Source: Terriglobia bacterium (GTDB lineage: Bacteria > Acidobacteriota > Vicinamibacteria > Vicinamibacterales > CAVVIG01). From it: a DNA stretch of 64,000 nt. A program made the translations under genes and the position numbers. This document shows, piece after piece, positions 2,245 to 60,222 of this stretch. A model generated the notes under the pieces. It was not told where the DNA came from, did not search any database, and saw only the letters and a program-made list of their open reading frames with translations. Numbering within the stretch: the stretch's first letter is position 1; every line of letters begins with the position of its first letter. The DNA lies in NCBI GenBank assembly GCA_020073005.1, contig JAIQFX010000003.1, positions 1 through 64,000 of the forward strand, in the 5' to 3' direction.

Positions 2245-4767
2245 ATGACACCCATCTGGAAACGCGCGATTGAGGATCGCCTGGCGGGCGCGCGCATCGA
2301 TGGCGCGCGGCGGATCGAGATCGTCGACGAGCTGTCGCAGCATCTGCAGGATCGCTACGACGAGCTGCGCGCGGGCGGCGCGACCGACGACGCCGCGTGG
2401 CGGACGGCGCTGAACGAGCTCGACGGGCGGAACCTGGTACGCGAACTCGTGGACGTCGAGCGTCCGCCGCTCGAGCCGCTTCCGCTCGGCGGCGGATCGG
2501 GCGACAGCGTGGTCTCCGGCGTCTGGCAGGACGTCCGCTTCGGGGCGCGGCTGATCGCGAAGGAGCCGGCGACGGCGCTCGTCGTCGTCTTCACGCTGGC
2601 GCTCGCGATCGCGGCCAACACGATCGTGTTCGGCTTTACGGATCTCCTGCTGCTGCGCCCGCTCCCGCTCGGCAACATCAAGCGCTTCGTCGCGGTCTAC
2701 ACGGTGAGCCCGCAGTACGGACAGGACCGGCAGCCCGTGTCCATTCCCGACTTTCTCGACATGCGCGCGCAGAGCGCGTCGTTCGACGGGCTGTCGGCGA
2801 TGTACCGCTCGCAGGTGTCGCTGACCGGATCGGGCGAGCCGCGCGCGATCAACGTCGCGTACGTGACCGCGAATCACTTCAGCGTGTGGGGCGTGGCCGC
2901 GATCCAGGGCCGCGCGTTCATCGACGGCCAGACCGACGTCTGGCTGCCGATCGAGATGCGCCCGTCGGCGCGTCGCGACGACCTGTCGCTGAAGGTGTTC
3001 GGCCTCCTGAAGCCCGGGGCCTCGCTTCCGGGCGCGCAGGCCGAGCTGCGCACGATCGACGAGCGGCTCCAGAAGGCGTATCCCGTGACGAACGCCGGCC
3101 GCCAGTGGCTGGCGCTCTCCGGCCGCGATGCGACCGTCGGATCGGCGACGTGGGTGCTGCTCGCGCTGCTGACGGCCGTCGCCGGCCTCGTGCTGCTCGT
3201 CGCCTGCGCGAACGTCGCGACGGTGATGCTGGCTCGCGCGAGCGCGCGGCGGCGCGAGATCGCCGTGCGCGTCGCGCTCGGTGCGTCGCGCGGACGGCTC
3301 GTCTGCCAGCTCGTGCTCGAGGGATTGCTGCTCGGCCTCGCGAGCGGCGGCCTCGGCCTCCTGCTCGCGTACGCCGGCATCGGGTCGTTCCGCGCGCTCT
3401 CGCTCGAGGGCTACTTCCAGAAGCTCGCCATCAACTTCAACCTTCTGACGTTTGCCTTCTTCCTTTCTCTCCTTGCCCCCGTGCTCTTCGGCGTGATGCC
3501 GGCGCTGCAGTCGTCGCGGCCGAACTTGAACGAGGACCTCAAGGACGGCGGCCGCGATGCCGCCTCGTCGGTGCGCGGCGGGCGCAGCCGCAGCGTGCTC
3601 GTCGTCGTCCAGGTCGGATTCGCGTTCGCCGTGCTCATCGTCTCCGGCCTCATCGTGCGCACGGTGATCGCGATGGAGCACGTGCCGGTCGGCGTGAACG
3701 CCGGCGGTCTGCTGACGCTGCGCGTGCGGTTCGATCCGCCGAAGTACAACGACGACGACGCGCGCTTCCGCACGGTCGAGGCGATCCTTGATCGGCTGGA
3801 TGCCGTTCCCGGCGTCGTCGCCGCGGGCGCCAGCAGCGGATTGCCCGTCGTGGACGGCGAGCCGGCGCGGCGCTTCGCGATCGTCGGGACGCCGACGCCG
3901 CCGGCGAAGGATCTGCCGTGGATGTTCGAGGCCGCGACCGCCGGCGAGTACACGCGGGCGCTCGACCTGCGCATGATCGATGGACGGATGTGGCGGCCAG
4001 ACGATCGCGCCACCGGATGGAATGTCGCGGTCGTCAATCGCGAAGCCGCGCGCCGTTACTGGCCCGGCGCGTCGCCGCTTGGCGCGCACGTGACGATGGC
4101 GGATCCCGACGGCCGGCTGACCGGCGACTCGATCGAGATTGTCGGCGTCGTCGAAAACGTGCTCGGTTCCTCGGTCAACGAGCCTGCGCCGCCGCGGATC
4201 TACAGGCCGCTCGCGCGGCGGCCGATGACGAGCGTCGCGTTCGAAGTCCGCACGGCCGGAGAATTCAGCGCTGTCGCCGCGGCGATGCGCGAGGCGCTGC
4301 GGGCGGCCGATCGCGATCTCGCTGTCTCGGACATCCGCACGTTCGGCGACGAGATGGAGGCCGAGCTGCGCTCGCAGGACTTGATCATGGCGGTGTTCGC
4401 CGGCTTCGCGGCGATCGGCCTCATCGTGGCGGTCACCGGCATTTACGGCGTCACGGCGTTTTCGGTGGGCCAGCGGCGCCACGAGATCGGCGTGCGCCTC
4501 GCGCTCGGCGCCAGCGCGCCTGGCGTCGTGCGGCTGATCATGGGCGGCAGCTTCCGGCTGATCGGCCTTGGCGTCGCGTGCGGCATGCTCGGCGGCTGGG
4601 CGATCGGCCTGACGATGCGCAACATTCTGTTCGGTGTTGGCGCGATCGATCCGCTGACGTCGCTCGCCGTCCTTGCCCTCGTCGGACTCGGCGGATTCGT
4701 GGCCACGTATCTTCCCGCGCATCGCGTCGTGTCCATCGATCCGGCCGTCGTCCTGAAACGAGACTGA
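2245..4767 (+). CDS. ADOP-type permease with N-terminal prefix domain and shortened core
   Basis: An 840-residue inner-membrane permease. Residues 1-80 form a soluble prefix rich in charged helices (DELSQHLQDRYDEL), the 'permease prefix domain' often seen in this family. The first membrane segment is at about 108-135. The periplasmic MacB core follows, then FtsX segments around 305-420 and at the C-terminus (GIYGVTAFSVGQRRHEIGVRLALG). The core is abnormal: residue 226 (GRAF) is followed almost directly by DVWLP. The sister protein at 20409 has about 60 residues between these motifs, including the LW..FGGDP..VG....LDG...VIGVMP block. The frame is kept, so the product may be stable but lacks much of the subdomain. 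The start ATG is preceded by a degenerate AT-rich phrase (ctgaaatctc), not a clear ribosome site. Substrate unknown. Confidence 0.9.
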   Translation: MTPIWKRAIEDRLAGARIDGARRIEIVDELSQHLQDRYDELRAGGATDDAAWRTALNELDGRNLVRELVDVERPPLEPLPLGGGSGDSVVSGVWQDVRFGARLIAKEPATALVVVFTLALAIAANTIVFGFTDLLLLRPLPLGNIKRFVAVYTVSPQYGQDRQPVSIPDFLDMRAQSASFDGLSAMYRSQVSLTGSGEPRAINVAYVTANHFSVWGVAAIQGRAFIDGQTDVWLPIEMRPSARRDDLSLKVFGLLKPGASLPGAQAELRTIDERLQKAYPVTNAGRQWLALSGRDATVGSATWVLLALLTAVAGLVLLVACANVATVMLARASARRREIAVRVALGASRGRLVCQLVLEGLLLGLASGGLGLLLAYAGIGSFRALSLEGYFQKLAINFNLLTFAFFLSLLAPVLFGVMPALQSSRPNLNEDLKDGGRDAASSVRGGRSRSVLVVVQVGFAFAVLIVSGLIVRTVIAMEHVPVGVNAGGLLTLRVRFDPPKYNDDDARFRTVEAILDRLDAVPGVVAAGASSGLPVVDGEPARRFAIVGTPTPPAKDLPWMFEAATAGEYTRALDLRMIDGRMWRPDDRATGWNVAVVNREAARRYWPGASPLGAHVTMADPDGRLTGDSIEIVGVVENVLGSSVNEPAPPRIYRPLARRPMTSVAFEVRTAGEFSAVAAAMREALRAADRDLAVSDIRTFGDEMEAELRSQDLIMAVFAGFAAIGLIVAVTGIYGVTAFSVGQRRHEIGVRLALGASAPGVVRLIMGGSFRLIGLGVACGMLGGWAIGLTMRNILFGVGAIDPLTSLAVLALVGLGGFVATYLPAHRVVSIDPAVVLKRD

Positions 4768-5670: not shown

Positions 5671-6270
5671 CTGACAATCGGTTTCAAAGTGAAGTCAGGA
5701 TTCGCGATCGCCATCGTCGTCGCCGGACCGGCGAAGTCGCCGCGCGCGATCGCGCGCCACATCGTCGAGATGAGCGATCCTGAAGAGCGCTGGACGCGCC
5801 AGCCGTACCACAATCGCATGTTCAAGACCGAAGAGGACGAAGGCGAGATCGCCCGCCGCGTGAAGATCGTGAAGCGCTGCGCGAAGAAGTCCGTCGAGGC
5901 ATTGATCGATCAGGTGTGTAGCGCGAGCCTTGCAGGCGAGCGTGCACCCCTGCGAGCCGCGCTCGTCGTCGGCAGCGTCGTCGATCCGGCGACGATCGGC
6001 AGCCCGCACATGCGCGCGCACGCGAACGAGGGCCGGCTCTTTCGCACGGTGCTCGAGAACGCGCTGCAGTCCCACGGAGTGGCGGTCGACGTCATCGTCG
6101 AGAAGACGCTGCCGAAGAAGGCGATTGCCGCTCTCGATCGATCCGCTGGCGATGTAAAGAAGGTTATCGACGGATTCGGCGAGGCGCTCGGCACGCCCTG
6201 GCGCGCCGAAGAGAAAGCCGCCGCGACCGCCGCCTGGATCGCGATCTCGAAAGAATCATCCCACCGCTGA
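5668..6270 (+). CDS. Conserved-looking hypothetical protein carrying an in-frame repeat element
   Basis: A protein of about 200 residues that I do not recognise. The GTG at 5668 (LTIGFKVKSGFAIAIVVAGP) is preferred because everything upstream in the frame is the G-rich repeat. The N-terminal beta-strand FAIAIVVAGP is followed by conserved-looking RWTRQPYHNRMF. The C-terminal half (RAALVVGSVVDPATIGSPHMRAHANEGRLF) has an alpha/beta pattern. There is no signal peptide or membrane segment. Residues around 84-92 (CSASLAGER) are encoded by a copy of the TAG-headed palindromic element at 5919-5941, read through in a frame where its TAG is not a stop, so the protein has probably been lengthened by a repeat insertion. 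It lies between a PEP-mutase-like gene and a permease, with no functional hint. Confidence 0.7.
   Translation: MLTIGFKVKSGFAIAIVVAGPAKSPRAIARHIVEMSDPEERWTRQPYHNRMFKTEEDEGEIARRVKIVKRCAKKSVEALIDQVCSASLAGERAPLRAALVVGSVVDPATIGSPHMRAHANEGRLFRTVLENALQSHGVAVDVIVEKTLPKKAIAALDRSAGDVKKVIDGFGEALGTPWRAEEKAAATAAWIAISKESSHR
5919..5941 (+). repeat. TAG-headed palindromic element, copy a (inside CDS)
   Basis: TAGCGCGAGCCTTGCAGGCG followed by AGC; core GCCTTGCAGGC. It is read in frame within the hypothetical gene 5668-6270. Confidence 0.75.
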
Positions 6271-8798: not shown

Positions 8799-10407
8799 CG
8801 GCCTTGCGCGCGTCGACGAGCTCCGGCCGGCCCGGCGTGTCGGCGCGCGCGCAGACCTTCAACAGCTGGTCGTAATACTTCCGCGCTGACGTCCGATCGC
8901 CGATCGCCGTCGCGGCTTTCGCGGCGCCGGCGAGCGCTCGAAACCGGTTCGGCTCCTTCTTCAACGTCGCCTCGAATTCGGTCATCGCCGCCGCGGGCTG
9001 CGTGACCTCGAGCAGCATCTCGCCAAGCAGCTCACGCGCCGGCGCGAGGGGACCCGGCGTGACGGCGTTTTTCTCCGTCGCGTCCTCGCGCAGCGCCACC
9101 GCGCGCATGGCCGCGACCGCATCGTCCTTCCGGCCCTCGACCAGCGTCAGCCACGCGGACGCCGCGTGACGCTGGATCTCGACCTGTTCGGCCCAATAAG
9201 TTTCGCCGCTCTTCGCCAGCCGATCGTGAATCTGCGCCAGCGCGTCGATCGCCTCGCGCATCGTCGCGGGCTGACGCAGGCGCGCGGCGCCCAGCGCGCG
9301 CGCGAAGTACGTCATCGCCTCGGTGTAGGGAAACGGCGTGGTGCGCGGCACGAGCTTCACCGCATCGGCCCAGGCGCCGCGCTCGAGCGCATAGCGCGCG
9401 GGAATCGCCGCGAGCGCGAAGTAGGCGGCCGAAGGCGGAGCGGCGCCGCCGCCAGCGGTCGGATTGAAGCGGCTCGCAATTTCCGGCAGCGCCGCGATCA
9501 GCTTGCCGGCGGCGCGATCCTGTCCGGTCTGCAGGTACGCGTACATCTGGTAGTCCGTCGCGTGCAGCTCTTCGCCCGTCGCGCCTTCGCGTTTCGCCGA
9601 CGCGGCGGACGCGATGTTGGTGTCGATCGACTCCTGCCAGTAGCCGACGCGCGTGAACGTGTGCGAGGGCATGTGCAGCGCGTGCGGCGCCGACGGCGCG
9701 ATCGTCGCGTAGCGGCGCGCCGCTTCGAGCGCGCGGTCGGCGAGCGGCGGCACGTCGTAGGTGTGGATGATGTAGTGCGCCAGGCCGGGGTGATCCGGAT
9801 GCGCCGCGAACAGCTTCTCGAGCAGAGCGCCGGCTCTGAGCTGGCTCGCGTACGTCTTGTCCGCCGGATCGGCGGCGACGGCGAGCGACAGCGCGAAGAA
9901 GATCGTGGCCTCGTCGTCCAGCGAATAGACCGTGGCCAGCGCGGCCATCGAGTCGCGATACGCGCGCAGGCGCGCGTCCTGGGCGACGCGCTCGAAGTTT
10001 CCGTAGAGGACGCCGACGGCGTCGATGTACTTGCGCTCGCGCTCGGTGGGCGGGAGCGGCGACGTGGCGCGCTCTATCGCCTCGCGGCCGAGCTGCAGCT
10101 GCGCGGGCGGCCTCAGGCCCGCCGCGAACGGGTTGCCCCAGCGGCTCAGGGCGATGCCCCAGTTCGCCATCGAGCAGGAAGGGTCGGCCTTCAGCACCGC
10201 GGTGAATCCGTCGATCGCGCGCTGGAATTCGAAGGAGTGGAGGAGAGCGACCGCGCGATCGAAGAGGGGCTGCGCGGCCGCGCTGCAGGAGGTCTCGAAA
10301 TGCACGGTGCCGAGTTTTTCGACCGGCGCCTGGCCGTGATCGTGGTCCTGCGCCACGGCAGGGCACGTCAGGATCGCGAGAATGCTGACAAACGGTACAA
10401 GCCGCAT
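8776..10407 (-). CDS. Exported TPR-repeat protein
   Basis: A 543-residue protein with a signal peptide at 1-19 (MRLVPFVSILAILTCPAVA, cleaved before QDHDHG). The mature part consists of tetratricopeptide-like helical pairs: FDRAVALLHSFEFQRAIDGF near 50-70, WQESIDTNIASA in the middle and LLGEMLLEVTQPAAAMTEFEATLKKEPNRFRALAGAAKA near the C-terminus. Conserved-looking HYIIHTYD and HALHMPSHTF motifs in the middle belong to a recurrent periplasmic TPR family of unknown function. A likely scaffold or enzyme-associated periplasmic protein; no catalytic activity can be claimed. The start is supported by an AAGGAGGGG ribosome site about 4 nt upstream and by a TATAAT box at 10437-10442. The gene converges on and overlaps the permease end by 23 nt. 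Confidence 0.88.
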
Positions 10408-11289: not shown

Positions 11290-11335
11290 AGGGGACGGGA
11301 GTCGGGATCCATTTCGGGCGGACTCCCGTCCCCTA
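11289..11335. repeat. GGGACGGG hairpin element, copy 1 (intergenic)
   Basis: Arms of 15 bp (11289-11303 and 11321-11335), core GGGGACGGGAGTC/GACTCCCGTCCCC, loop 17 nt. It lies between two divergent genes. It differs from the other five copies in having GAGTC instead of GTCTC, with the compensating change in the other arm. Confidence 0.9.
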
Positions 11336-13474: not shown

Positions 13475-14036
13475 TGTGTCGAAGGATCCGACGCGGATGA
13501 CGGTCGACGAGTACCTCACTCGCACGCCGGGCACGGCGCGGCCGGCGGAGCTCATCTACGGCGAGCTCCGCGTCGCCGAGTCGCCGTCGGCCCGGCATCA
13601 GGCGGCGGTGGCGGATCTGTTTCGCGCGCTGGATCATCACGCCCGCGAGCGCGGGCTCGGCGAGGTCCGCGCCGCGCCGATCGACGTCGTTCTCGACGGA
13701 GATCACGCGCTCGTGCTCCAGCCGGATCTCGTCTTCATTTCGAACGCGCGCGCGTCGATTCTGCAGGAGCGCGTCAATGGCGCGCCGGACCTGATGGTCG
13801 ACGTCCTGTCGCCCGAGCCACGGATCGGACGCACCGAGGAGCGCGTGCAATGGTGCGCCGAAAGCGGCGTGCGCGAATGCTGGTTCGTGCACCAGGACCT
13901 GCGATCGATCGCCATCTTCCGGTTCGCGTACCGGCGGATCGCCGCGCGCGTCGTGCACGGCCGGCAGGATCCGATCGCATCGGCCGTCCTGCCGGACCTG
14001 GGTGCCTGTCTCGACGATATTCTGCTGGCCGAGTGA
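13458..14036 (+). CDS. Uma2-family (PD-(D/E)XK-like) protein
   Basis: A 192-residue protein of the Uma2/DUF820 family, which has a restriction-endonuclease-like fold and is abundant in cyanobacteria and Acidobacteriota; its role is unproven. It begins TRMTVDEYLTRTPGTARPAELIYGELRVAESPSARHQ, with the conserved HQ. The acidic nuclease-type residues are in LVLQPDLVFIS (about residue 90) and DLMVDVLSPEP (about 113); the EXK-like part is weak (RTEERVQWCAESGVRECW instead of the usual K-x5-Y). ATG 13458 is preferred over the earlier in-frame start at 13305 because the intervening sequence is not conserved-looking. The gene is followed by a TAG-headed element. Confidence 0.88.
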   Translation: MTSSEAVSKDPTRMTVDEYLTRTPGTARPAELIYGELRVAESPSARHQAAVADLFRALDHHARERGLGEVRAAPIDVVLDGDHALVLQPDLVFISNARASILQERVNGAPDLMVDVLSPEPRIGRTEERVQWCAESGVRECWFVHQDLRSIAIFRFAYRRIAARVVHGRQDPIASAVLPDLGACLDDILLAE

Positions 14037-14049
14037 CACCCAGGACATC

Positions 14050-14072
14050 GCTCGCCTGAAAGGCTCGCGCTA
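14050..14072 (-). repeat. TAG-headed palindromic element, copy c
   Basis: Identical to copies b and f; sits between the converging Uma2 and WYL-regulator genes. Confidence 0.85.
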
Positions 14073-14087
14073 CATTCCGGACCGCGA

Positions 14088-22923: not shown

Positions 22924-24249
22924 GTGCCCACCGCCGACGCCGCGCCAGTTCTCGCCAAAGCGCGCCGCCGGCTGATTCCCTTTCTCTTCCTCCTCTACAT
23001 CGTCGCCTACCTCGATCGCATCAACGTCGGGTTCGCCGCGCTGCAGATGAACCGGGCGCTCGGCTTCTCGGCGTCGACGTACGGGTTCGGCGCCGGCATC
23101 TTCTTTCTCAGCTACGTTCTGTTCGAGATTCCGAGCAACGTGATCCTCGCGCGCGTCGGCGCGCGGCTGTGGATCGCGCGGATCATGATCACGTGGGGAC
23201 TCGTCTCGTCGGGGATGATGTTCGTCCACGGCGTGACGGGCTTCTACACGCTGCGATTCCTGCTCGGCCTCGCCGAGGCCGGATTCTTTCCGGGCATCAT
23301 CTTCTATTTCACGCGCTGGTTCCCGCCGCGCGAGCGCGCGCGGACGATCGCGACGTTCATGACGGCGACGCTGACCGCGGGCGTGATCGGCGCGCCGATC
23401 TCCGGCGCGCTGCTGTCGATTCACGGCCTCGGGCTGGCCGGATGGCAATGGCTGTTCGTTCTCGAGGGCCTGCCGGCGATCGTCCTGGGCTTCGTCGTGC
23501 TGTTCGTGCTGCCCGACGGACCCGACACCGCGCGCTGGTTGAGCGACGCGGAACGCGCGGCGGTGCGCGATGCGCTGAGCGGGGGACGGGTCTCCGGTCA
23601 CGCCGACGGCGGAGACCCGTCCCCTTTGTCCGACCCGTCCCCGTCCACCCGCGAGGCGCTCTCGAGCGGCCGCGTGTGGCTCGTCTCGGTCAGCCACTTC
23701 CTGCTGATTCCGGTCGCGCTGTACGGGATCGGCTTCTGGATGCCGCAGATTCTGAAGAGCGCGTCGGGCGCGAGCGACTTCATCGTCGGCGTGCTGACGG
23801 CGATCCCGTACGCCTGCGGCGCAGTGGCGATGGTAATCGCCGGACGGCATTCGGATCGCACGGGCGAGCGGCGATGGCATGTCGCGATCGCCGCGGCGGT
23901 CTGCGCATCGGGTCTCGTGCTCAGCACGATGGCCGCCGGCCCCGTGTGGTCAGTCGTGACGCTGTCGCTCGCGATGATCGGACTCGCCGGCGTGTTCGGT
24001 CCGTTCTGGGCGCTCGCGTCGGTCACGATTCGCGGCACCGGCGCCGCGGCCGCGATCGCGCTCATCAACTCGGTGGGGAATACGGGCGGCTTCGTCGGTC
24101 CGTATCTGCTCGGCGCGATCAACGACGCGATGCACAGTTTCGCGATGGGGCTGTACGCGATCGCCGCGATGCTGCTGCTCGGCGGCGCGCTGGTGCTCGG
24201 CGTGCGCGACGGCGGTCTGGCTGACGCCGGACGCCACTCGTCCTCCTAA
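22924..24249 (+). CDS. MFS anion:cation symporter-type transporter with repeat in its central loop
   Basis: A 441-residue, 12-helix secondary carrier of the ACS/phthalate-permease type that takes up organic anions. Family marks: LFLLYIVAYLDRINVGFAAL (22-41), FFLSYVLFEIPSNVILARVGARLWIARIMITWG and FTRWFPPRERARTIATFMTA. Helices 1-6 lie before about residue 200 and helices 7-12 after 250. The cytoplasmic loop between them (219-245) is encoded partly by hairpin element copy 2 and an extra half arm (GGRVSG...GGDPSPLSDPSPS), so the loop has been extended by a DNA repeat in frame. GTG start at 22924. No catabolic enzyme adjacent identifies the substrate. Confidence 0.92.
   Translation: MPTADAAPVLAKARRRLIPFLFLLYIVAYLDRINVGFAALQMNRALGFSASTYGFGAGIFFLSYVLFEIPSNVILARVGARLWIARIMITWGLVSSGMMFVHGVTGFYTLRFLLGLAEAGFFPGIIFYFTRWFPPRERARTIATFMTATLTAGVIGAPISGALLSIHGLGLAGWQWLFVLEGLPAIVLGFVVLFVLPDGPDTARWLSDAERAAVRDALSGGRVSGHADGGDPSPLSDPSPSTREALSSGRVWLVSVSHFLLIPVALYGIGFWMPQILKSASGASDFIVGVLTAIPYACGAVAMVIAGRHSDRTGERRWHVAIAAAVCASGLVLSTMAAGPVWSVVTLSLAMIGLAGVFGPFWALASVTIRGTGAAAAIALINSVGNTGGFVGPYLLGAINDAMHSFAMGLYAIAAMLLLGGALVLGVRDGGLADAGRHSSS
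23582..23624. repeat. GGGACGGG hairpin element, copy 2 (in the MFS gene)
   Basis: Perfect 14-bp arms GGGGACGGGTCTCC/GGAGACCCGTCCCC, loop 15 nt, in frame in the inter-domain loop; a further half arm GACCCGTCCCCG follows at 23633. Confidence 0.92.
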
Positions 24250-24273: not shown

Positions 24274-24335
24274 GCTCGCCTGAAAGGCTCGCCCTACAAT
24301 TGCTGGCAGATGTAGCGCGAGGCTTTCAGCCGAGC
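24274..24335. repeat. Two TAG-headed elements in inverted orientation, copies d and e
   Basis: Copy d (24274-24296, minus) and copy e (24313-24335, plus) face each other across 16 nt, making a larger 62-nt palindrome just upstream of the ABC ATPase gene. Confidence 0.85.
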
Positions 24336-24342
24336 GATCACC

Positions 24343-25101
24343 ATGCTGACCATCAACCATCTGCGAAAGTCCTACGGGCCGCTCGTCGCGGTCGACGACG
24401 TTTCGTTTTCGGTCGAGCGCGGCCAGCTCGTCGGCCTGCTCGGCCCCAACGGCGCCGGCAAGACGACGACCGTGTCGATGGTCGCCGGTCTGGTGACGCC
24501 AGACACAGGCGACGTCCTCGTCGGCGGCGCCGCGCTCAGGGGCGACACCGATCCGAAGAAGCGGCAGATCGGACTCGTCCCGCAGGATCTCGCGCTGTAC
24601 GACGAGCTGTCGGCGCGCGCCAACCTGCGCTTCTTCGGCGCGCTCTACGATCTCTCCGGCGCCGCGCTCGACAAGGCGATCGCCGCCGCGCTCGAGCTGG
24701 TCGGCCTCGCCGATCGCGAGCGCGATCTCGTGAAGACGTTCAGCGGCGGCATGAAACGCCGGCTGAATCTCGCCGCCGGCCTGCTGCACGATCCGGACAT
24801 CCTGCTGCTCGACGAACCCACGGTCGGCGTCGATCCGCAGAGCCGCAACGCGATCTTCGACAACCTCGAAGAGCTGAAGCGCCGCGGCAAGGCGCTGCTC
24901 TACACCACGCACTACATGGAAGAAGTCGAGCGCCTCGCGGATCGCATCGTCGTGATCGATCACGGTGGGGTGATCGCGGACGACACGCTGTCCGGCCTGT
25001 TGAACGGGGACGGGTCTCGGAGCGCGCTGGAGGCCGAGACCCGTCCCCGTACTCTCGAGGCGGTCTTCCTCACGCTGACGGGAAGGAGCCTGCGCGACTG
25101 A
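24343..25101 (+). CDS. ABC transporter ATP-binding protein (ABC-2 exporter type)
   Basis: A 252-residue cytoplasmic ATPase that powers the membrane protein encoded directly downstream. Walker A GPNGAGKT (34-41), Q-loop PQDLALYDE (80-88), signature FSGGMKRRL (133-141), Walker B ILLLDEP (153-159), D-loop and switch-His in LYTTHYMEEVERL (about 182-194). It belongs to the NodI/DrrA/CcmA-like exporters. The C-terminal tail is altered: residues about 221-236 (NGDGSRSALEAETRPR) are encoded by hairpin element copy 3, in frame, ten or so residues before the end of the protein. The stop overlaps the permease start (TGATG), so the two are translationally coupled. Confidence 0.95.
   Translation: MLTINHLRKSYGPLVAVDDVSFSVERGQLVGLLGPNGAGKTTTVSMVAGLVTPDTGDVLVGGAALRGDTDPKKRQIGLVPQDLALYDELSARANLRFFGALYDLSGAALDKAIAAALELVGLADRERDLVKTFSGGMKRRLNLAAGLLHDPDILLLDEPTVGVDPQSRNAIFDNLEELKRRGKALLYTTHYMEEVERLADRIVVIDHGGVIADDTLSGLLNGDGSRSALEAETRPRTLEAVFLTLTGRSLRD
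25004..25050. repeat. GGGACGGG hairpin element, copy 3 (in the ABC ATPase gene)
   Basis: 17-bp perfect arms (25004-25020, 25034-25050), core GGGGACGGGTCTCGG/CCGAGACCCGTCCCC, loop 13 nt; translated in frame near the C-terminus. Confidence 0.93.
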
Positions 25102-31190: not shown

Positions 31191-32856
31191 GACGATCAGC
31201 CGCAACTCTAAACCCCAGGCTTGGTCCTTTGTCCTGCGGGGCGTGCGTGTAGCGCAGGCCGCAGCGCGCGCTGTTGGCGTCGAACAGGTAGCTCCCGCCG
31301 CGGATGACGCGCGTGTCGCCGGCCGCCGCGCCGGTCGCGTCGATGTTGACGGCGGCGATCTCCGAATACGGCCCGTACCAGTCCGCCGTCCATTCCCACA
31401 CGTTGCCGTGCATGTCGGCGAGCCCCCACGGATTGAGCGGAAACGATCCGACGGGCACTGTCCGGCCGCGCGAGTCGCCGGCGGAGAACGACGCGTACGG
31501 GAACTTGCCGTTGTAGTTCGCCTGCGCCGTCGTGACGTTCTCGCCGGTCGAGAACGGACCGGTGGTCCGCGCGCGGCACGCGTACTCCCATTGCGCCTCG
31601 GTCGGCAGCCGGTAACGCAGCGTCGCCGACGGATTCGCGTTCAGCTTCGCGAGAAACTGCTGGACGTCGACGAACGACACGTTCTCCACGGGACATCGCG
31701 CGCAGTTCGAGTTCTGGCTGGGAGACGAGCCCATGACCGCGCGCCATTCCTGCTGCGTCACTTCGAACTGTCCGAGCAGGAACGGATGCGTGATCTCGAC
31801 GTCGTGCAGCGTCTCGTCCGCGTTGCGGCCGATCTCGCCCGCCGCGCTGCCCATCGTGAACCGGCCCGCGGGCAGCTCGACGAACGTCAGGCCGCTGGCG
31901 GTGTCGGTGACGGTCGGCGTCGGCGTGCGGACTTCTTCGCCCGCGCTGACTTCGAACCGGCGGAAGCGGCCGTAGGTCGCGACGGTCGTCACCTTGTAGC
32001 CGTTGGCGATCGTGTATTGCTCGCGCATCTCGAGCGGCACCGCGATCGCCGACTTCTCCTCGACGCGGAACGTCGTCGTGATGACGGCGCGCACCGACGG
32101 CTGCTCGACGCCGAGCTCGGTCTTGAGGACGGCGCCGGTCGACGCGTCGATCCACAGGCGGCCGTGCGCGAACAGATCGCGGCCGGCTTCTCCCTGAATC
32201 ATCGCGGGCGACTGCACTTCCTTGTATTCCACGATCCGGACATTGGCGCCGGTGCTCCGATCTTCCTTGCCGAGGGAAAACCGGAAGCGCGGCTGATAGC
32301 TGCGCTGCAGCACGGACAGCCCGAGCACCGGATTGCCGAGCGTGGTGTGCAGGTTGCCGAGGTTGTAGCGCGCGCCCTCCTCGCGAATCTGCTCGGCCTG
32401 GGCCATCGCGTCCTTGGCGCCGCTGAGGAACAGCCGCGCCAGCCGCTCCTGGCGATCGCGGACCGGAACGCCGTCGACCATGATCACGTCGCGGAACGGC
32501 AGGAGCGCCGACGTGTCGGGCGACTTCACGAACAGGAAATCGGATCGCAAATCGCGGTGACGGGCCCGGGTCATCTCCGTCGGTACGACCGGCGTCGGCG
32601 CGCTGCCGCGTCCGCCGCCGACGGCGACGAACGTGGGCAGCGAGGCGTTCGAGTCCTGCACGTAGTTCTCTTCGGCGACGACGTTCTCGAATTCGTCGAT
32701 GAAATAGTCGAGGTACCAGGCCGCGCGGTCGAGCAGCGACTCAAGCGGGGGACGGGTCTCGGAACGGTCTTGCGCCGAGACCCGTCCCCCGAGTCCCGCG
32801 ACCAGGCCGAGGCTCATGCACAGCGCCGACCGCGCGAGCCGAAACCGGGTGCCCAT
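31186..32856 (-). CDS. Exported protein with C-terminal formylglycine-generating-enzyme-like (SUMF1) domain, catalytic Cys pair absent
   Basis: A 556-residue exported protein. The signal peptide runs to VSA at residue 28; the sequence after the hydrophobic core (GGRVSAQDRSETRPPLES) is encoded by hairpin element copy 4. Residues about 40-300 form an uncharacterised N-terminal region (AAWYLDYFIDEFENVVAEENYVQD...). Residues about 315-556 are a SUMF1 domain: FVELPAGRFTMGS, ITHPFLLGQFEVTQQEWRAVMG, RLPTEAQWEYACRA, GNVWEWTADWYG, RVIRGGSYLFD. In true formylglycine-generating enzymes two Cys follow GGS-Y; here the positions are Phe525 and a non-Cys residue, so copper-dependent sulfatase activation is not expected. 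Probably a binding or non-canonical domain. Confidence 0.88.
   Translation of the reverse strand: MGTRFRLARSALCMSLGLVAGLGGRVSAQDRSETRPPLESLLDRAAWYLDYFIDEFENVVAEENYVQDSNASLPTFVAVGGGRGSAPTPVVPTEMTRARHRDLRSDFLFVKSPDTSALLPFRDVIMVDGVPVRDRQERLARLFLSGAKDAMAQAEQIREEGARYNLGNLHTTLGNPVLGLSVLQRSYQPRFRFSLGKEDRSTGANVRIVEYKEVQSPAMIQGEAGRDLFAHGRLWIDASTGAVLKTELGVEQPSVRAVITTTFRVEEKSAIAVPLEMREQYTIANGYKVTTVATYGRFRRFEVSAGEEVRTPTPTVTDTASGLTFVELPAGRFTMGSAAGEIGRNADETLHDVEITHPFLLGQFEVTQQEWRAVMGSSPSQNSNCARCPVENVSFVDVQQFLAKLNANPSATLRYRLPTEAQWEYACRARTTGPFSTGENVTTAQANYNGKFPYASFSAGDSRGRTVPVGSFPLNPWGLADMHGNVWEWTADWYGPYSEIAAVNIDATGAAAGDTRVIRGGSYLFDANSARCGLRYTHAPQDKGPSLGFRVAADRR
32746..32791. repeat. GGGACGGG hairpin element, copy 4 (in the SUMF1-like gene)
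   Basis: 17-bp perfect arms (32746-32762, 32775-32791), loop 12 nt; translated in frame at the signal-peptide cleavage region. Confidence 0.93.
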
Positions 32857-32898: not shown

Positions 32899-34188
32899 AT
32901 GAGACGTGCACTGTTCGCAGTCTTCGGCGTCGCGGCCGTCGCCCTCGTCGCTGGACAACGGGGACGGGTCTCGGCGCTCGATCGTCCCGAGACCCGTCCC
33001 TTTGCTGTCGCCGCGCAGCGGCCCGTGCCGCCCGCGGCGCGGTCCCAGGCCGTCGCCGCGTACTTCCCGGATCGCTTCGACTGGCAGCACAAGAAGCCGG
33101 AAGAAGTCGGGATGGACTCGGCGCTGGTGAATCAGGCCGTGCAGGCCGCGATTGCCGCCGACACGCCGGGCACGCACGACATGACGCTGTTCCTGAAGAA
33201 CAGCTTCGGCAAGGAACCGTTCGACACGATCGTCGGCCCCGTGAAGGATCGCGGTCCCGCCAGCGGCCTGATCATGCGGCACGGCTACATCGTCGCCGAG
33301 TGGGGCGAGCCGTCACGCGTCGACATCACCAACAGCGTGACGAAGACGTTCTTGACGACGGTCGTCGGCCTCGCGTGGCAGAAGGGATTGATCCACGACG
33401 TCAACGACTACGTGCGCGACTACATGCCGCCGCACGTCGATCTGTTCGACGCGCCGCACAACCGGAACATCAAGTGGGATCACCTGCTGCGGCAGACGAG
33501 CGACTGGTCGGGCACGCTGTGGGGTAAGCCGGACTGGGCGGATCGTCCGGTCGGCAAGGGTCCCGAGGACTGGCAGAACCGGCCGATGTACGAGCCCGGC
33601 ACGCACTTCAAGTACAACGACGTGCGCGTGAACGTGATGGCGCTCGCGGCGCTGCAGGTCTGGCGCAAGCCGCTGCCGGAAGTCCTGCGCGAAGAGATCA
33701 TGGAGCCGATCGGCGCCTCGTCGACGTGGCGCTGGTACGGCTACGAGAATTCGTGGGTCGAGGTCGACGGCCAGAAGATGCAGTCGGTGAGCGGCGGCGG
33801 CCACTGGGGCGGCGGCATGTTCATCAACGCGTACGACATGGCGCGCTTCGGCTACCTCTTCCTGCGCAACGGCAAGTGGAAGGACAAGACGCTCGTCTCC
33901 GAAAAGTGGATCGAGATGGCGCGGAAGAACGGTCCCGCGGAGAACAACAACAACTACGGCTTCGCGAACTGGTACCTGAACCTCGACAAGAAGCCGCTGC
34001 CGAGCGCGCCGGCGACCGCCGTCCGCTTCGTCGGCAACGGATCGAACATCATCTACGTCGACTGGGAGAACGACATCGTCGCGGTCGTGCGCTGGATCCG
34101 CGGCGACAAAGCGCTCGACGACGTGGTCGGAAAAACGATTGCGTCGCTGAAGTCGACGAATACGGCAGTGGGACACGCGGCGCGATGA
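32899..34188 (+). CDS. Exported serine hydrolase of the beta-lactamase/class C fold
   Basis: A 429-residue exported enzyme related to class C beta-lactamases, esterases and 6-aminohexanoate-dimer hydrolases. Signal peptide about 1-26; as in its divergent neighbour, the cleavage region GRVSALDRPETRP is encoded by a hairpin element (copy 5). The nucleophile motif is S146-V-T-K149 (ITNSVTKTFL). A tyrosine motif is at about 239 (FKYNDVRVN), and the GGG loop SVSGGGHWGGGMFINAYDMARFGYLFL (split around 295-320) is typical of the family. The periplasmic location and context suggest ester or amide hydrolysis; lactamase activity is not implied. RBS ACAGGAG. The TfoX-like gene follows closely. Confidence 0.92.
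   Translation: MRRALFAVFGVAAVALVAGQRGRVSALDRPETRPFAVAAQRPVPPAARSQAVAAYFPDRFDWQHKKPEEVGMDSALVNQAVQAAIAADTPGTHDMTLFLKNSFGKEPFDTIVGPVKDRGPASGLIMRHGYIVAEWGEPSRVDITNSVTKTFLTTVVGLAWQKGLIHDVNDYVRDYMPPHVDLFDAPHNRNIKWDHLLRQTSDWSGTLWGKPDWADRPVGKGPEDWQNRPMYEPGTHFKYNDVRVNVMALAALQVWRKPLPEVLREEIMEPIGASSTWRWYGYENSWVEVDGQKMQSVSGGGHWGGGMFINAYDMARFGYLFLRNGKWKDKTLVSEKWIEMARKNGPAENNNNYGFANWYLNLDKKPLPSAPATAVRFVGNGSNIIYVDWENDIVAVVRWIRGDKALDDVVGKTIASLKSTNTAVGHAAR
32960..33000. repeat. GGGACGGG hairpin element, copy 5 (in the beta-lactamase-fold gene)
   Basis: 14-bp perfect arms (32961-32974, 32987-33000), loop 12 nt; again translated at the signal-peptide cleavage region. Confidence 0.93.
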
Positions 34189-50362: not shown

Positions 50363-50437
50363 ATTTCAGATTTTAGAGTTCAGATTTCAGATTAGAATCC
50401 CGCAATCAATCTGAACTCTGAATTCTGAAATCTGAAT
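50363..50437. repeat. Phrase palindrome (cagattttagagttcagatt / aatctgaactctgaattctg)
   Basis: Left arm 50367-50394 and right arm 50407-50435 are imperfect reverse complements of iterated ttcagatt-like words around agaatcccgcaatc; it fills the gap before the acyl-CoA ligase gene and is far more AT-rich than its flanks. Confidence 0.8.
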
Positions 50438-50441
50438 TCTC

Positions 50442-52957: not shown

Positions 52958-53013
52958 GTCTTCCTCCTTCGGGCGCGCGCCCCTGCGGGCCGTCGCTCAC
53001 TCTCGTCCGGATA

Positions 53014-53560
53014 ACTACGTGCAAGGAGACCGCCGAGCGAGCTTCGCAGCTAACCACGTCGTGCGTTTCGCTCGCGCAGTCACTCGAAGTCCTTGAATCG
53101 CAGGATGCTAACACCGTTCATCGCCCTGGAGCTCAAGCGATGGTTGGCTGCGAGGAAGTGGTTGGCTGCGGCGCTGCAGCTAACGGCCGGCTGGTTCAAT
53201 CTGAGAAAGCGCTGGCGATCAGTCGGAGTTGTACCAACGCGACAGCGGTGTCGATCGATCGCCGACGTCCGAGCGCGCCGACTGGAACCGCTGCCGGAAG
53301 TCGGACGCAGCGAGGGTTCCGCGGCGACTTCGTTCCGCGCGATCCGTGGCTTCCAGAGAACCACCGGCGTTGGATCCGCGTGCGCACGCATTTGAAGCAA
53401 GCCGCTAGTCGCCGCGCGTGCGGAAGGGTACCGAGCGGAGGCCGACTTCCCGGCGCGCGAATCGGAGGCGAGCGAGCGACACCGCTGTCGCGAAGATCGT
53501 CCGGTGAAGCCTCGCGTTACGACGGGCCAGCGATTCTTAATTCTGAATTCTCAATTTCCT
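53014..53560. repeat. Long intergenic block, copy A
   Basis: About 530 bp that match 54411-54960 at roughly 85% by eye, with no gap larger than a few tens of bases. It starts at TAACTAC(G/T)TG and includes taaccaacgcgacagcggtgt-like and cggaagggtaccgagcgg segments, a degenerate TAG-headed element (copy i, 53498-53519) and an attctgaattct phrase. No coding frame in it looks real. It is part of the 53014-53706 gap, which holds no gene. Confidence 0.9.
53498..53519 (-). repeat. TAG-headed element family, diverged copy i
   Basis: Minus strand TAACGCGAGGCTTCACCGGA then CG; head changed from TAG to TAA. Corresponds to copy j in block B. Confidence 0.6.
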
Positions 53561-54388: not shown

Positions 54389-54410
54389 TCCTGTCTCGTC
54401 TTGTGTCTGC

Positions 54411-54960
54411 CTAACTACTTGTAAGTAGACCGGCGAGTGAGGTTAGCAGCTAACCCCTCCCTGCCTTGCGCTCGCGCAGTCGCTCGAAGCCCTTGAATCA
54501 GAGGATGCTAACACCGTTCATCGTTCTGGAGCCCCGCAATGGTTGGCTGCCAGACTCGCAGCTAACAGCCGGCTGCTCAATCTGAAGAACGCGCCGGCGA
54601 TCGGTCCGAGCAGTACCAACGCGACAGCGGTGTCGATCGATCGCCGACGTCTGAGCGCGCCGATTGGAGCCGTTGCCGGAAGTCGGGCGCAGCGAGGCTT
54701 CCGCGGCGACTTCGTTCCGCGCGATCCGTGGCTTCGGGAAAACCACCGGCGTTGGATCCGCGGACACATGCATCTGAAGCAAGCCGATAGTCGCCGCGCG
54801 TGCGGAAGGGTACCGAGCGGAGACCGACTTCCCGGCGCGCGAATCGGAGGCGAGCGAGCGACACCGCTGTCGCGCGAAGACGGCTGTCGCCATACGCGCT
54901 CGGCGGAAGCCTCGCGCTACGGCAGCAATCCTGAATTCTGAATTCTTAATTCTGAATTTC
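54411..54960. repeat. Long intergenic block, copy B
   Basis: Homologue of block A. It starts TAACTACTTG, contains a perfect dyad GGTTAGCAGCTAACC near 54441, the shared cggtgtcgatcgatcgccga segment, a degenerate TAG-headed element (copy j, 54898-54919) and an attctgaattcttaattctg phrase that runs into the intact dedA stop. The gap 54389-54945 holds no gene. Confidence 0.9.
54898..54919 (-). repeat. TAG-headed element family, copy j
   Basis: Minus strand TAGCGCGAGGCTTCCGCCGA then GC; same place in block B as copy i in block A. Confidence 0.65.
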
Positions 54961-58833: not shown

Positions 58834-60222
58834 ATGATCGCCCCTTCTTCGCCAGGCGATCCGATCCTTATTGTCGGGGCCGGTCCGGCCGGCGCGACGG
58901 CGGCCCGAGCGCTCGCGTCGGCGGGCGCGCGGGTCCGGCTGCTGGACCGCGCCGCCTTCCCGCGCAACAAGCCCTGCGGCGGCGGCATCAGCGCGCGCGT
59001 GCTCCGGCGGTTCCCCTACCTCGACGCCGCGCTGCCCCGGATCGCCACGCACGCGGTCGCGCGCCTTCACCTGGAAGGTCCCGGCGGCGAGTCGACGCTG
59101 GTCGAATCCGACCGCCCGGCCGCGCTGCTGATTCGCCGCGTGGAATTCGACGCGCTGCTGGTGTCGCTTGCCGTCGAGGCGGGCGCCGAGCTCGTGTCCG
59201 GCGTGGACATCGTGCAGGCGCAGCAGGATGCCGGGCACGTCCTGCTGACCGCGCGCGACGGCCGCCGGTTCCAGGCCCCGGTCGTGATTGCCGCCGACGG
59301 CGTTCACAGCGTCGTCGCACGCCGGCTCGGCCTCAATCGCGGGTGGCCCGCCTCGTCTGTCGCGCTGGACATGATGGAAGAGACGCCGCGCGCGGAGCTG
59401 CGCGATCTCGATCCGTCCGCGCTCTGGGTCTCGTACGGCTACGAGTCGAACATCGCGGAATGCGGAATGCGGAGCGCGGAATGCAGTGCTTCTTCGTTCC
59501 GCACTCCGCAATCCTCAATCCGCGATAGGAAGACTTCCCAAGGTTACGCGTACATCTTCCCGAAGCGCGATCACGTGAACATCGGCGTCGGGTACGTGCT
59601 CTCGCACTACCGCCAGATGCGGGGGACGGGTCTCGCACTCGATGGCGAGACCCGTCCCCTTGCGCCGTACGACATTCAGCGGGGATTCGTCGACCGGCTG
59701 CGCGATCGCGGGATCGTGGCCGGCGCATCGAATCGATCGCATTTCACCCCATTCCTGATTCCCGTCGGCGGGCCGCTGCGAGAGCCGGGCCGCGGCCGCG
59801 TGCTGCTGGCGGGCGACGCGGGCGGGTTCGTCAATTGCGTCACGGCCGAAGGGATTTACTACGCGATGGTGACGGGCGATCTGGCGGCCCGCGCCGTGAT
59901 GGAACGCGCCCCGCTCGCGACGCTGGCGCGCCGCTATCGCCGCGCGTGCGATTACGAAATCGGCCCGGAGCTGCGAGATTCCGTACTGCTGCAGCGGTAT
60001 CTGTTTGCCGATCGCCGCAGAATCGCCCGAATCATCGCTGGCGCGCATCGTGAACTGACCGCGACCCGATGGATTCTGGATTTCATCACGGGACGGACCT
60101 CCTATCGCGCGCTGCGCCGGCGGCTGCTCGCGCGCTCGCCGCTCCTGATCGGGCGGATGCTCTGGGAGTGGTTCGCGCTCAACAAGACGTTGCGATCGGC
60201 CGGAGCGACGACTACCATCTGA
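58834..60222 (+). CDS. Geranylgeranyl-reductase-family FAD oxidoreductase carrying two in-frame repeat insertions
   Basis: A 462-residue flavoprotein. FAD motif ILIVGAGPAGATAARALASAGARVRLLDRA (about 11-40), FPRNKPCGGGIS (the conserved KPCGGG), VVIAADGVHSVVARRLG (the DG motif) and GRVLLAGDAGGFVNCVTAEGIYYAMVTGDLAA (the GD motif). Members reduce isoprenoid chains or halogenate/hydroxylate aromatics. Between the DG and GD regions two repeats are translated: residues about 206-231 (IAECGMRSAECSASSF, then RTPQSSIRDRK) from a phrase palindrome, and about 262-276 (RGTGLALDGETRPLA) from hairpin copy 6. Neither is part of the fold, so the surface has been altered by DNA repeats. Seventeen nt precede the DUF1800 gene. 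Confidence 0.9.
   Translation: MIAPSSPGDPILIVGAGPAGATAARALASAGARVRLLDRAAFPRNKPCGGGISARVLRRFPYLDAALPRIATHAVARLHLEGPGGESTLVESDRPAALLIRRVEFDALLVSLAVEAGAELVSGVDIVQAQQDAGHVLLTARDGRRFQAPVVIAADGVHSVVARRLGLNRGWPASSVALDMMEETPRAELRDLDPSALWVSYGYESNIAECGMRSAECSASSFRTPQSSIRDRKTSQGYAYIFPKRDHVNIGVGYVLSHYRQMRGTGLALDGETRPLAPYDIQRGFVDRLRDRGIVAGASNRSHFTPFLIPVGGPLREPGRGRVLLAGDAGGFVNCVTAEGIYYAMVTGDLAARAVMERAPLATLARRYRRACDYEIGPELRDSVLLQRYLFADRRRIARIIAGAHRELTATRWILDFITGRTSYRALRRRLLARSPLLIGRMLWEWFALNKTLRSAGATTTI
59453..59527. repeat. Phrase palindrome inside a CDS (gcggaatgcgga / tccgcaatcctcaatccgcg)
   Basis: Left arm atcgcggaatgcggaatgcg and right arm tccgcaatcctcaatccgcg(at) are imperfect reverse complements around gcagtgcttcttcgttccg; translated in frame in the flavoprotein gene. 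Confidence 0.85.
59622..59659. repeat. GGGACGGG hairpin element, copy 6 (in the flavoprotein gene)
   Basis: 15-bp perfect arms GGGGACGGGTCTCGC/GCGAGACCCGTCCCC, loop 8 nt, in frame. Confidence 0.93.

Follow-up and report, generated by a model that had tools for sequence, protein, structure and literature searches.

Palindromic Repeats of Two Unrelated Families Lie in Frame in Two Predicted Loops of an Acidobacterial Reductase

A geranylgeranyl reductase-family flavoprotein gene from a Terriglobia bacterium contains two palindromic repeats, a "phrase" palindrome built of 7-nt units and a short hairpin, which are both read in frame at sites where homologues lack them. Unrelated elements recur in one of the same loops in related genomes, and the hairpin is linked to a transposase gene. 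With a probability of roughly 0.8, two independent families of non-autonomous palindromic elements entered two tolerant surface loops of this one enzyme, the hairpin being REP-like and linked to an HUH transposase. Both inserts would have been kept because they are frame-neutral and free of stop codons.

Host gene and its product

The window, i.e., the whole 64,000-nt stretch of DNA that was analyzed, comes from a 5.86-Mb assembly of 179 contigs (referred to below as G000). Named homologues assign it to the Acidobacteria, the nearest named relatives pointing to the order Vicinamibacterales. The reductase gene and the repeats within it, along with an intergenic phrase palindrome of the same window, are as follows.

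58834..60222, plus strand: geranylgeranyl-reductase-family flavoprotein gene, host of both repeats; uninterrupted ORF of 462 aa, TIGR02032 above cutoff, FAD_binding_3, GGR-like fold
59452..59526, plus strand: phrase palindrome, 75 nt, in frame, residues 207-231, beta-hairpin turn
59622..59659, plus strand: hairpin GGGGACGGGTCTCGC-ACTCGATG-GCGAGACCCGTCCCC, 38 nt, in frame, approximately residues 263-276, helix-helix loop
59637..59644, plus strand: hairpin loop ACTCGATG, residues A-L-D, resembling the orthologues' host residues A-[IV]-D; candidate retained host sequence
50375..50440, no strand assigned: another phrase palindrome, AATTCTGA type, intergenic

The gene product scores 186 bits against TIGR02032 (geranylgeranyl reductase family; cutoff, 159), and its structural model has a predicted GGR-like fold (pTM, 0.83; TM score with 3oz2, 0.78). 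A previous, sequence-only reading of the window had reported two palindromic repeats in frame within one flavoprotein gene, and its positions proved right to within 1 nt in an open reading frame that is indeed uninterrupted. In the model, the phrase palindrome falls into loop 1 (residues 202-236, flanked by strands 196-201 and 237-243; pLDDT of about 36) and the hairpin into loop 2 (residues 265-277, between helices 256-264 and 278-291; pLDDT of 59-68), with the conserved block GYAYIFPKRDHVNIGVGYVLSHYR separating the two. The earlier view that two unrelated families occupy tolerant surface positions in frame is supported, the loops being predicted ones. The accompanying idea of a hot spot in one permissive loop holds for loop 1 across genera (see below), but by the model the two repeats sit in two loops rather than one.

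In the congeneric genome G001, the reductase gene is a frameshifted, interrupted relic next to an intact neighbor gene (L027). Elsewhere in the window, segments 53005-53475 and 54405-54857, 1.4 kb apart, are 83-90% identical and represent a recent local duplication.

The phrase palindrome and loop 1

The phrase palindrome consists of imperfect inverted arms made of 7-nt units (of the GCGGAAT / ATTCCGC type) around the center TTCTTCG, and it folds far better than expected from its composition (z = -6.8 against dinucleotide shuffles, with 0 of 200 shuffles folding as well). It is one of a loosely defined class of repeats whose inverted arms are composed of 7-nt phrases. The three-unit GCGGAAT phrase has 72 matches in G000 and none in the control; 60 matches were found genome-wide in G002, a member of the same genus. 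Only 5 of the 31 phrase palindromes are genic, 3 of these 5 being at gene ends.

Alignment of the orthologues from relatives and of named homologues shows that loop 1 is a turn of 2-3 residues in the order-level outgroups (e.g., YGHGGSAGY), whereas it is enlarged in all members of the same family, with differing content. Loop 1 of G002 carries a GCGGAAT palindrome related to that of the window, the one of G019 an AAGTCTG palindrome, and that of G017 a GGGATTC palindrome plus additional copies in tandem; the respective phrases have 25 matches in G019 and 105 in G017. The G017 loop (L017) reaches approximately 60 residues through tandem repetition of a roughly 45-nt unit based on the GGGATTC phrase. 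Neither the AAGTCTG nor the GGGATTC phrase has any match in G000, and GCGGAAT has a single match in G017. Since the phrase found in loop 1 is abundant in its own genome while GGGATTC and AAGTCTG are absent from G000, the loop has been filled independently, or refilled, by the phrase of each genome. In the G019 array, CAAGTCT (with TCA) replaces GAAGTCT exactly where the standard unit would give an in-frame TGA, a replacement in keeping with translation of the insert. Judged from these alignments, loop 1 is hypervariable within the reductase family and a hot spot across genera.

The hairpin and loop 2

The hairpin has a perfect 15-bp stem and likewise folds better than any of its 200 dinucleotide shuffles (z = -7.4). 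The insertion itself, proposed in the sequence-only reading along with a comparison with homologues as the means of checking it, is borne out by the alignments: next to the short outgroup turn at the phrase site, the orthologues lack the hairpin residues, and none of the other homologues aligned has the hairpin. Its size had been put too high, however, at about 15 residues. The site is longer by 33 nt than in 13 of the 13 aligned hairpin-free orthologues, a net gain of 11 residues; where every other intact homologue has 5 residues (AIDQS, AVDQA, or SVDEA), the gene in the window has 16.

A family of predominantly genic hairpins

Hairpins of the form GGGGACGGG-N18..34-CCCGTCCCC are present in 76 exact copies in G000, mostly of 38-46 nt, with 0 control matches; 10 and 8 copies were found in two congeners, 22 in G025, and 3 in G013. 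The other copies in the window are listed below.

11291..11333, no strand assigned: hairpin copy of the AGT type, intergenic
23582..23624, plus strand: in-frame hairpin copy within an MFS transporter gene, shared with G001
25006..25048, plus strand: hairpin copy in frame near the C terminus of an ABC ATPase gene
32748..32789, minus strand: hairpin copy in frame beside the N-terminal signal-like segment of a gene
32961..33000, no strand assigned: hairpin copy with a stem end one nt shorter, intergenic

Of the 50 copies examined, 38 lie in predicted genes, many of them confirmed by orthologues. The hairpin-bearing genes, named by sequence recognition rather than by database search, include those for enolase, MutS2 (twice), ThiC, LeuRS, QueC, glycerate kinase, and LigD, and the sequences flanking the inserts are intact in the orthologues. 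Certain loops have been struck repeatedly. For enolase, four genomes from three genera are affected: G000 and G001 carry an AGT hairpin, G025 has one of the TCT type, and G013 has half a hairpin, with none in G002. The MutS2 loop has been hit in two genera (G000 and G013). In G012, the QueC loop and that of an ATP-grasp-like protein, both holding hairpins in G000, contain tandem heptamer phrases.

In enolase (L131 and L098), G000 and G001 agree at 30 of 30 arm positions but at only about 5 in the loop, and the arms thus seem to be maintained. An alcohol dehydrogenase gene (L056, positions 9145-9210) carries a hairpin with an unusually long loop of AGTACT repeats.

An HUH (Y1_Tnp) transposase gene at C106:14121-14468, located between purN and purM and encoding the motifs PNHWHLIV, YVERN, and WRWSS, has a hairpin on its 5' side and two half-units on its 3' side. 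It is the only one of four Y1 transposase genes to be flanked by the hairpin, which is of the AGT subtype; the TCT subtype, that of the reductase hairpin, was not seen with any of the four. The hairpins form a REP-like family of the terminal-repeat type that flanks the gene for an HUH (Y1, RAYT/TIRYT-type) transposase and is presumably mobilized by it in trans. At the same locus (L060, positions 1330-2050), the N terminus of PurN, the C terminus of PurM, and the C terminus of the transposase are all encoded by hairpin pieces.

Two more families were seen in passing. A third dispersed inverted-repeat family (GTAGCGCGAGCCTTTCAGGC...) is represented in the window at 5907-5942, 14026-14084, and 24310-24359, as well as at L080 7665-7724 and L077 18387-18441; one of its copies was called genic. 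Members of a fourth hairpin family (GTCCGGCTTCAGCCGGAC pairs; L088 4022-4101, L090 4214-4266, and L094 7333-7391) lie in frame in a helicase-like gene and a sulfatase-like gene.

Anatomy of the hairpin and its mode of insertion

The hairpin stem measures 15 bp in nearly every copy, the next inner (loop-closing) pair being complementary in 0 of 46. Outside the stem, the two flanking positions are complementary in 35 of 46 (76%) and 38 of 46 (83%) copies, against 26% by chance (p = 2e-12 and 2e-15), even though the flanking sequence itself varies from copy to copy; the third position is at chance. The loops, 8-14 and mostly 12 nt long, differ in practically every copy. They tend to start with A and to end with G, a bias which indicates that they are not purely arbitrary host sequence.

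Hairpin lengths divisible by 3 are found in 20 of 38 genic and 6 of 12 non-genic copies. The total length is thus not under frame selection, although clean insertion of a block would require multiples of 3 to be enriched in the genic copies. At ten sites, hand-picked for clean hairpin-free orthologues, the mean net gain of 29.4 nt is well below the mean hairpin length of 41.7 nt (p = 7e-5) and indistinguishable from the 30.0 nt of the arms only (p = 0.72); in the full set of 24 testable sites, gains scatter widely around a median of 25.5 nt. Compared with loops swapped in from other copies (Stouffer p = 0.006) or shuffled (p = 0.04), the copies' own loops are the better fit to the residues of the host orthologues, a modest (Fisher p = 0.04) and suggestive result from a test run under two different orthologue filters. 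Among the strongest candidates for a loop of host origin is that of the reductase copy: it outranks swapped (0.033) and shuffled (0.008) loops, and its A-L-D stands against A-[IV]-D.

These features raise the possibility, held at somewhat less than even odds, that the hairpin is not inserted as a block but that its arms bracket approximately 8-13 nt of host sequence, one arm having been copied from the other. In a more specific and slightly less probable version, a 13-nt core and its inverted copy with 2 nt of flank on each side (13 + 17 = 30 nt) would enclose about 12 nt of host codons. The arms would then have been laid around retained host sequence, with a gain of about 30 nt that is frame-neutral at any loop length, and fold-back templating could have produced one arm as a copy of the other that takes in 2 nt of flank. 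Alternatively, an equal stretch of host sequence may have been replaced rather than the loop retained.

A competing account, which we consider a little less plausible still, is that whole hairpins insert at 4-bp palindromic targets, the outer dinucleotides being the halves of a pre-existing NNNN palindrome and the target bases being trimmed. It agrees with the complementarity of precisely two outer positions, with the variety of the dinucleotides found (AA..TT, CG..CG, GC..GC, GA..TC, and others), and with the absence of solitary halves in G000. By itself, however, it would explain neither a net gain equal to the arms without the loop, nor the lack of enrichment of genic lengths divisible by 3, nor the variable but complementary inner dinucleotides. 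A model in which half-elements come first is not favored, as no solitary hairpin cores or half-elements were found in 1.17 Mb of G000, although half-elements are present in G001 and G013.

Independent entry versus other explanations

The sequence-only reading regarded two repeats in one gene as unlikely to be due to chance and took them to point to a shared insertion route, i.e., the same machinery placing both or a local DNA feature of the gene attracting palindromes. Both elements are indeed inverted repeats around a short center and lie within 210 bp of each other, and there is a second gene that holds both families: the linker region of MutS2 (L087, positions 3080-3620) contains two hairpins along with half a phrase of the GCGGATT type. 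Nevertheless, approximately 0.7 genes with both families would be expected from some 58 genic hairpins, 35 genic phrase repeats, and 4,600 genes, a rough figure because part of the G000 sample (stretches totaling about 1.2 Mb, with targeted pieces in addition) was chosen for holding repeat matches; hairpin-phrase pairs within 210 bp would be expected 0.17 times by a rough scaling in which the length weighting is a guess. The count of genes with both families is therefore near expectation, and the coincidence in the reductase, which is not improbable after all, needs no common route, loop tolerance being sufficient. The claim of a common route also runs against the genomic distributions, which differ strongly (38 of 50 hairpins but 5 of 31 phrase palindromes are genic; Fisher p = 1.8e-7) and argue for shared tolerance instead, as well as against the linkage of the HUH transposase gene to the hairpin only and the position of the two sites in separate loops of the model. 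We consider a shared route very unlikely.

Scarcely more likely is selection for function, whereby the peptides or the RNA or DNA hairpins would regulate the host genes and copies would be kept for their use. The identity of the enolase arms between G000 and G001 (30/30, against about 5 loop matches) does exceed the conservation expected of a neutral insert. On the other hand, the inserts lie in unrelated genes, in three frames and on both strands, so that the peptides differ (GDGS, GRVS, GTGL); the genic fraction of the hairpins is near the coding fraction and slightly below it; and the same loops are empty in congeners. As for an artifact of assembly or annotation, which the multicontig nature of the assembly (179 contigs) might suggest, the chance is negligible, given that homologous or parallel insertions with the frame kept are found in the separately assembled G001, G002, G013, G025, G017, and G019. 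Independent entry of two families into tolerant loops is thus the preferred reading.

Relation to known repeats

Rickettsia palindromic elements (RPEs) are palindromes read in frame in unrelated proteins; RPE-1 is longer than the hairpin of the window and comes from a different phylum. By description, not by sequence, the repeats reported here are similar to RPEs as in-frame palindromes in unrelated proteins. RPEs are discussed in the same paper (PMC3733652) that described intragenic REPs, which are thus already known: short in-frame palindromes tagged with GTAG or CGTC that lie within genes, sometimes twice per gene. That work also reported a single instance in which two Xanthomonas species carry different REPs at roughly the same recB site; here, recurrence in the same loop is repeated and involves unrelated families.

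The terminal inverted repeats (TIRs) of HUH transposase (TIRYT) genes are known to form dispersed families, also in Acidobacteria, many of them with GGGGWSAS (PMC3733652). Like the REPs and TIRs of RAYT and TIRYT genes, the hairpin is a short, high-copy-number dispersed palindrome that flanks a Y1/HUH transposase gene, and the family fits the REP/TIR class broadly. It departs from that class in its ends, which lack the terminal GTAG and read GGGGAC/GTCCCC (GGGGACGGG) with variable flanks; in GGGGACGG, which agrees with GGGGWSAS at 7 of 8 positions, one short of the strict motif; in its mostly genic (38/50) rather than mostly extragenic location; and in having a 15+2-bp stem and a loop that varies. 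CGTC REPs have an 8- to 9-bp stem, a 4- to 5-nt loop, and no associated transposase, whereas the hairpin has a 15-bp stem, an 8- to 14-nt loop, and a linked transposase. REPINs are extragenic, RAYT-linked inverted pairs of short units around a less conserved spacer, with 16-mers 71 bp apart and each REP itself palindromic (PMC3116915). The hairpin is likewise an inverted pair of short units with a less conserved spacer and a link to a RAYT-type gene, but it is shorter and mostly genic, its loops differ from copy to copy, and its arms are plain (by inspection, a GAC/GTC self-match of at most 3 bp).

The closest counterparts of the phrase palindromes are the heptameric G-rich GGGNATC repeats of Xanthomonas and Nostoc, which form arrays of few units and are underrepresented in coding DNA (PMC4692102). 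The window's phrase is likewise a 7-nt unit, present in both arms, and phrase palindromes are similarly scarce in genes (5/31). In contrast to GGGNATC, whose GGG runs are fit for quadruplexes, GCGGAAT has GG only, although the GGGATTC of G017 would fit; furthermore, the phrase has inverted arms that yield palindromes, and one genome carries many different phrases. A literature search on intragenic palindromes in surface loops and on heptamer palindromes in Acidobacteria found nothing closer.

Implications

The usual description of short palindromic repeats is that they are extragenic and do harm in genes, yet here a single genome has dozens of them in frame in housekeeping genes, as a source of new coding sequence. 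Because one of the two loops holds different repeats in relatives, tolerant protein loops appear to soak up whatever small repeats a genome has, and the filling of the same loops by different, unrelated repeats across genomes amounts to a natural insertion scan for loop tolerance. If host codons are indeed enclosed by the hairpin arms, a mobile element could reside in genes without disturbing the frame: the frame would be kept at any loop length, which would account for the genic location of three quarters of the copies, housekeeping genes included. Allele comparison would then provide a test of the still unsettled mechanism by which REPs disperse.
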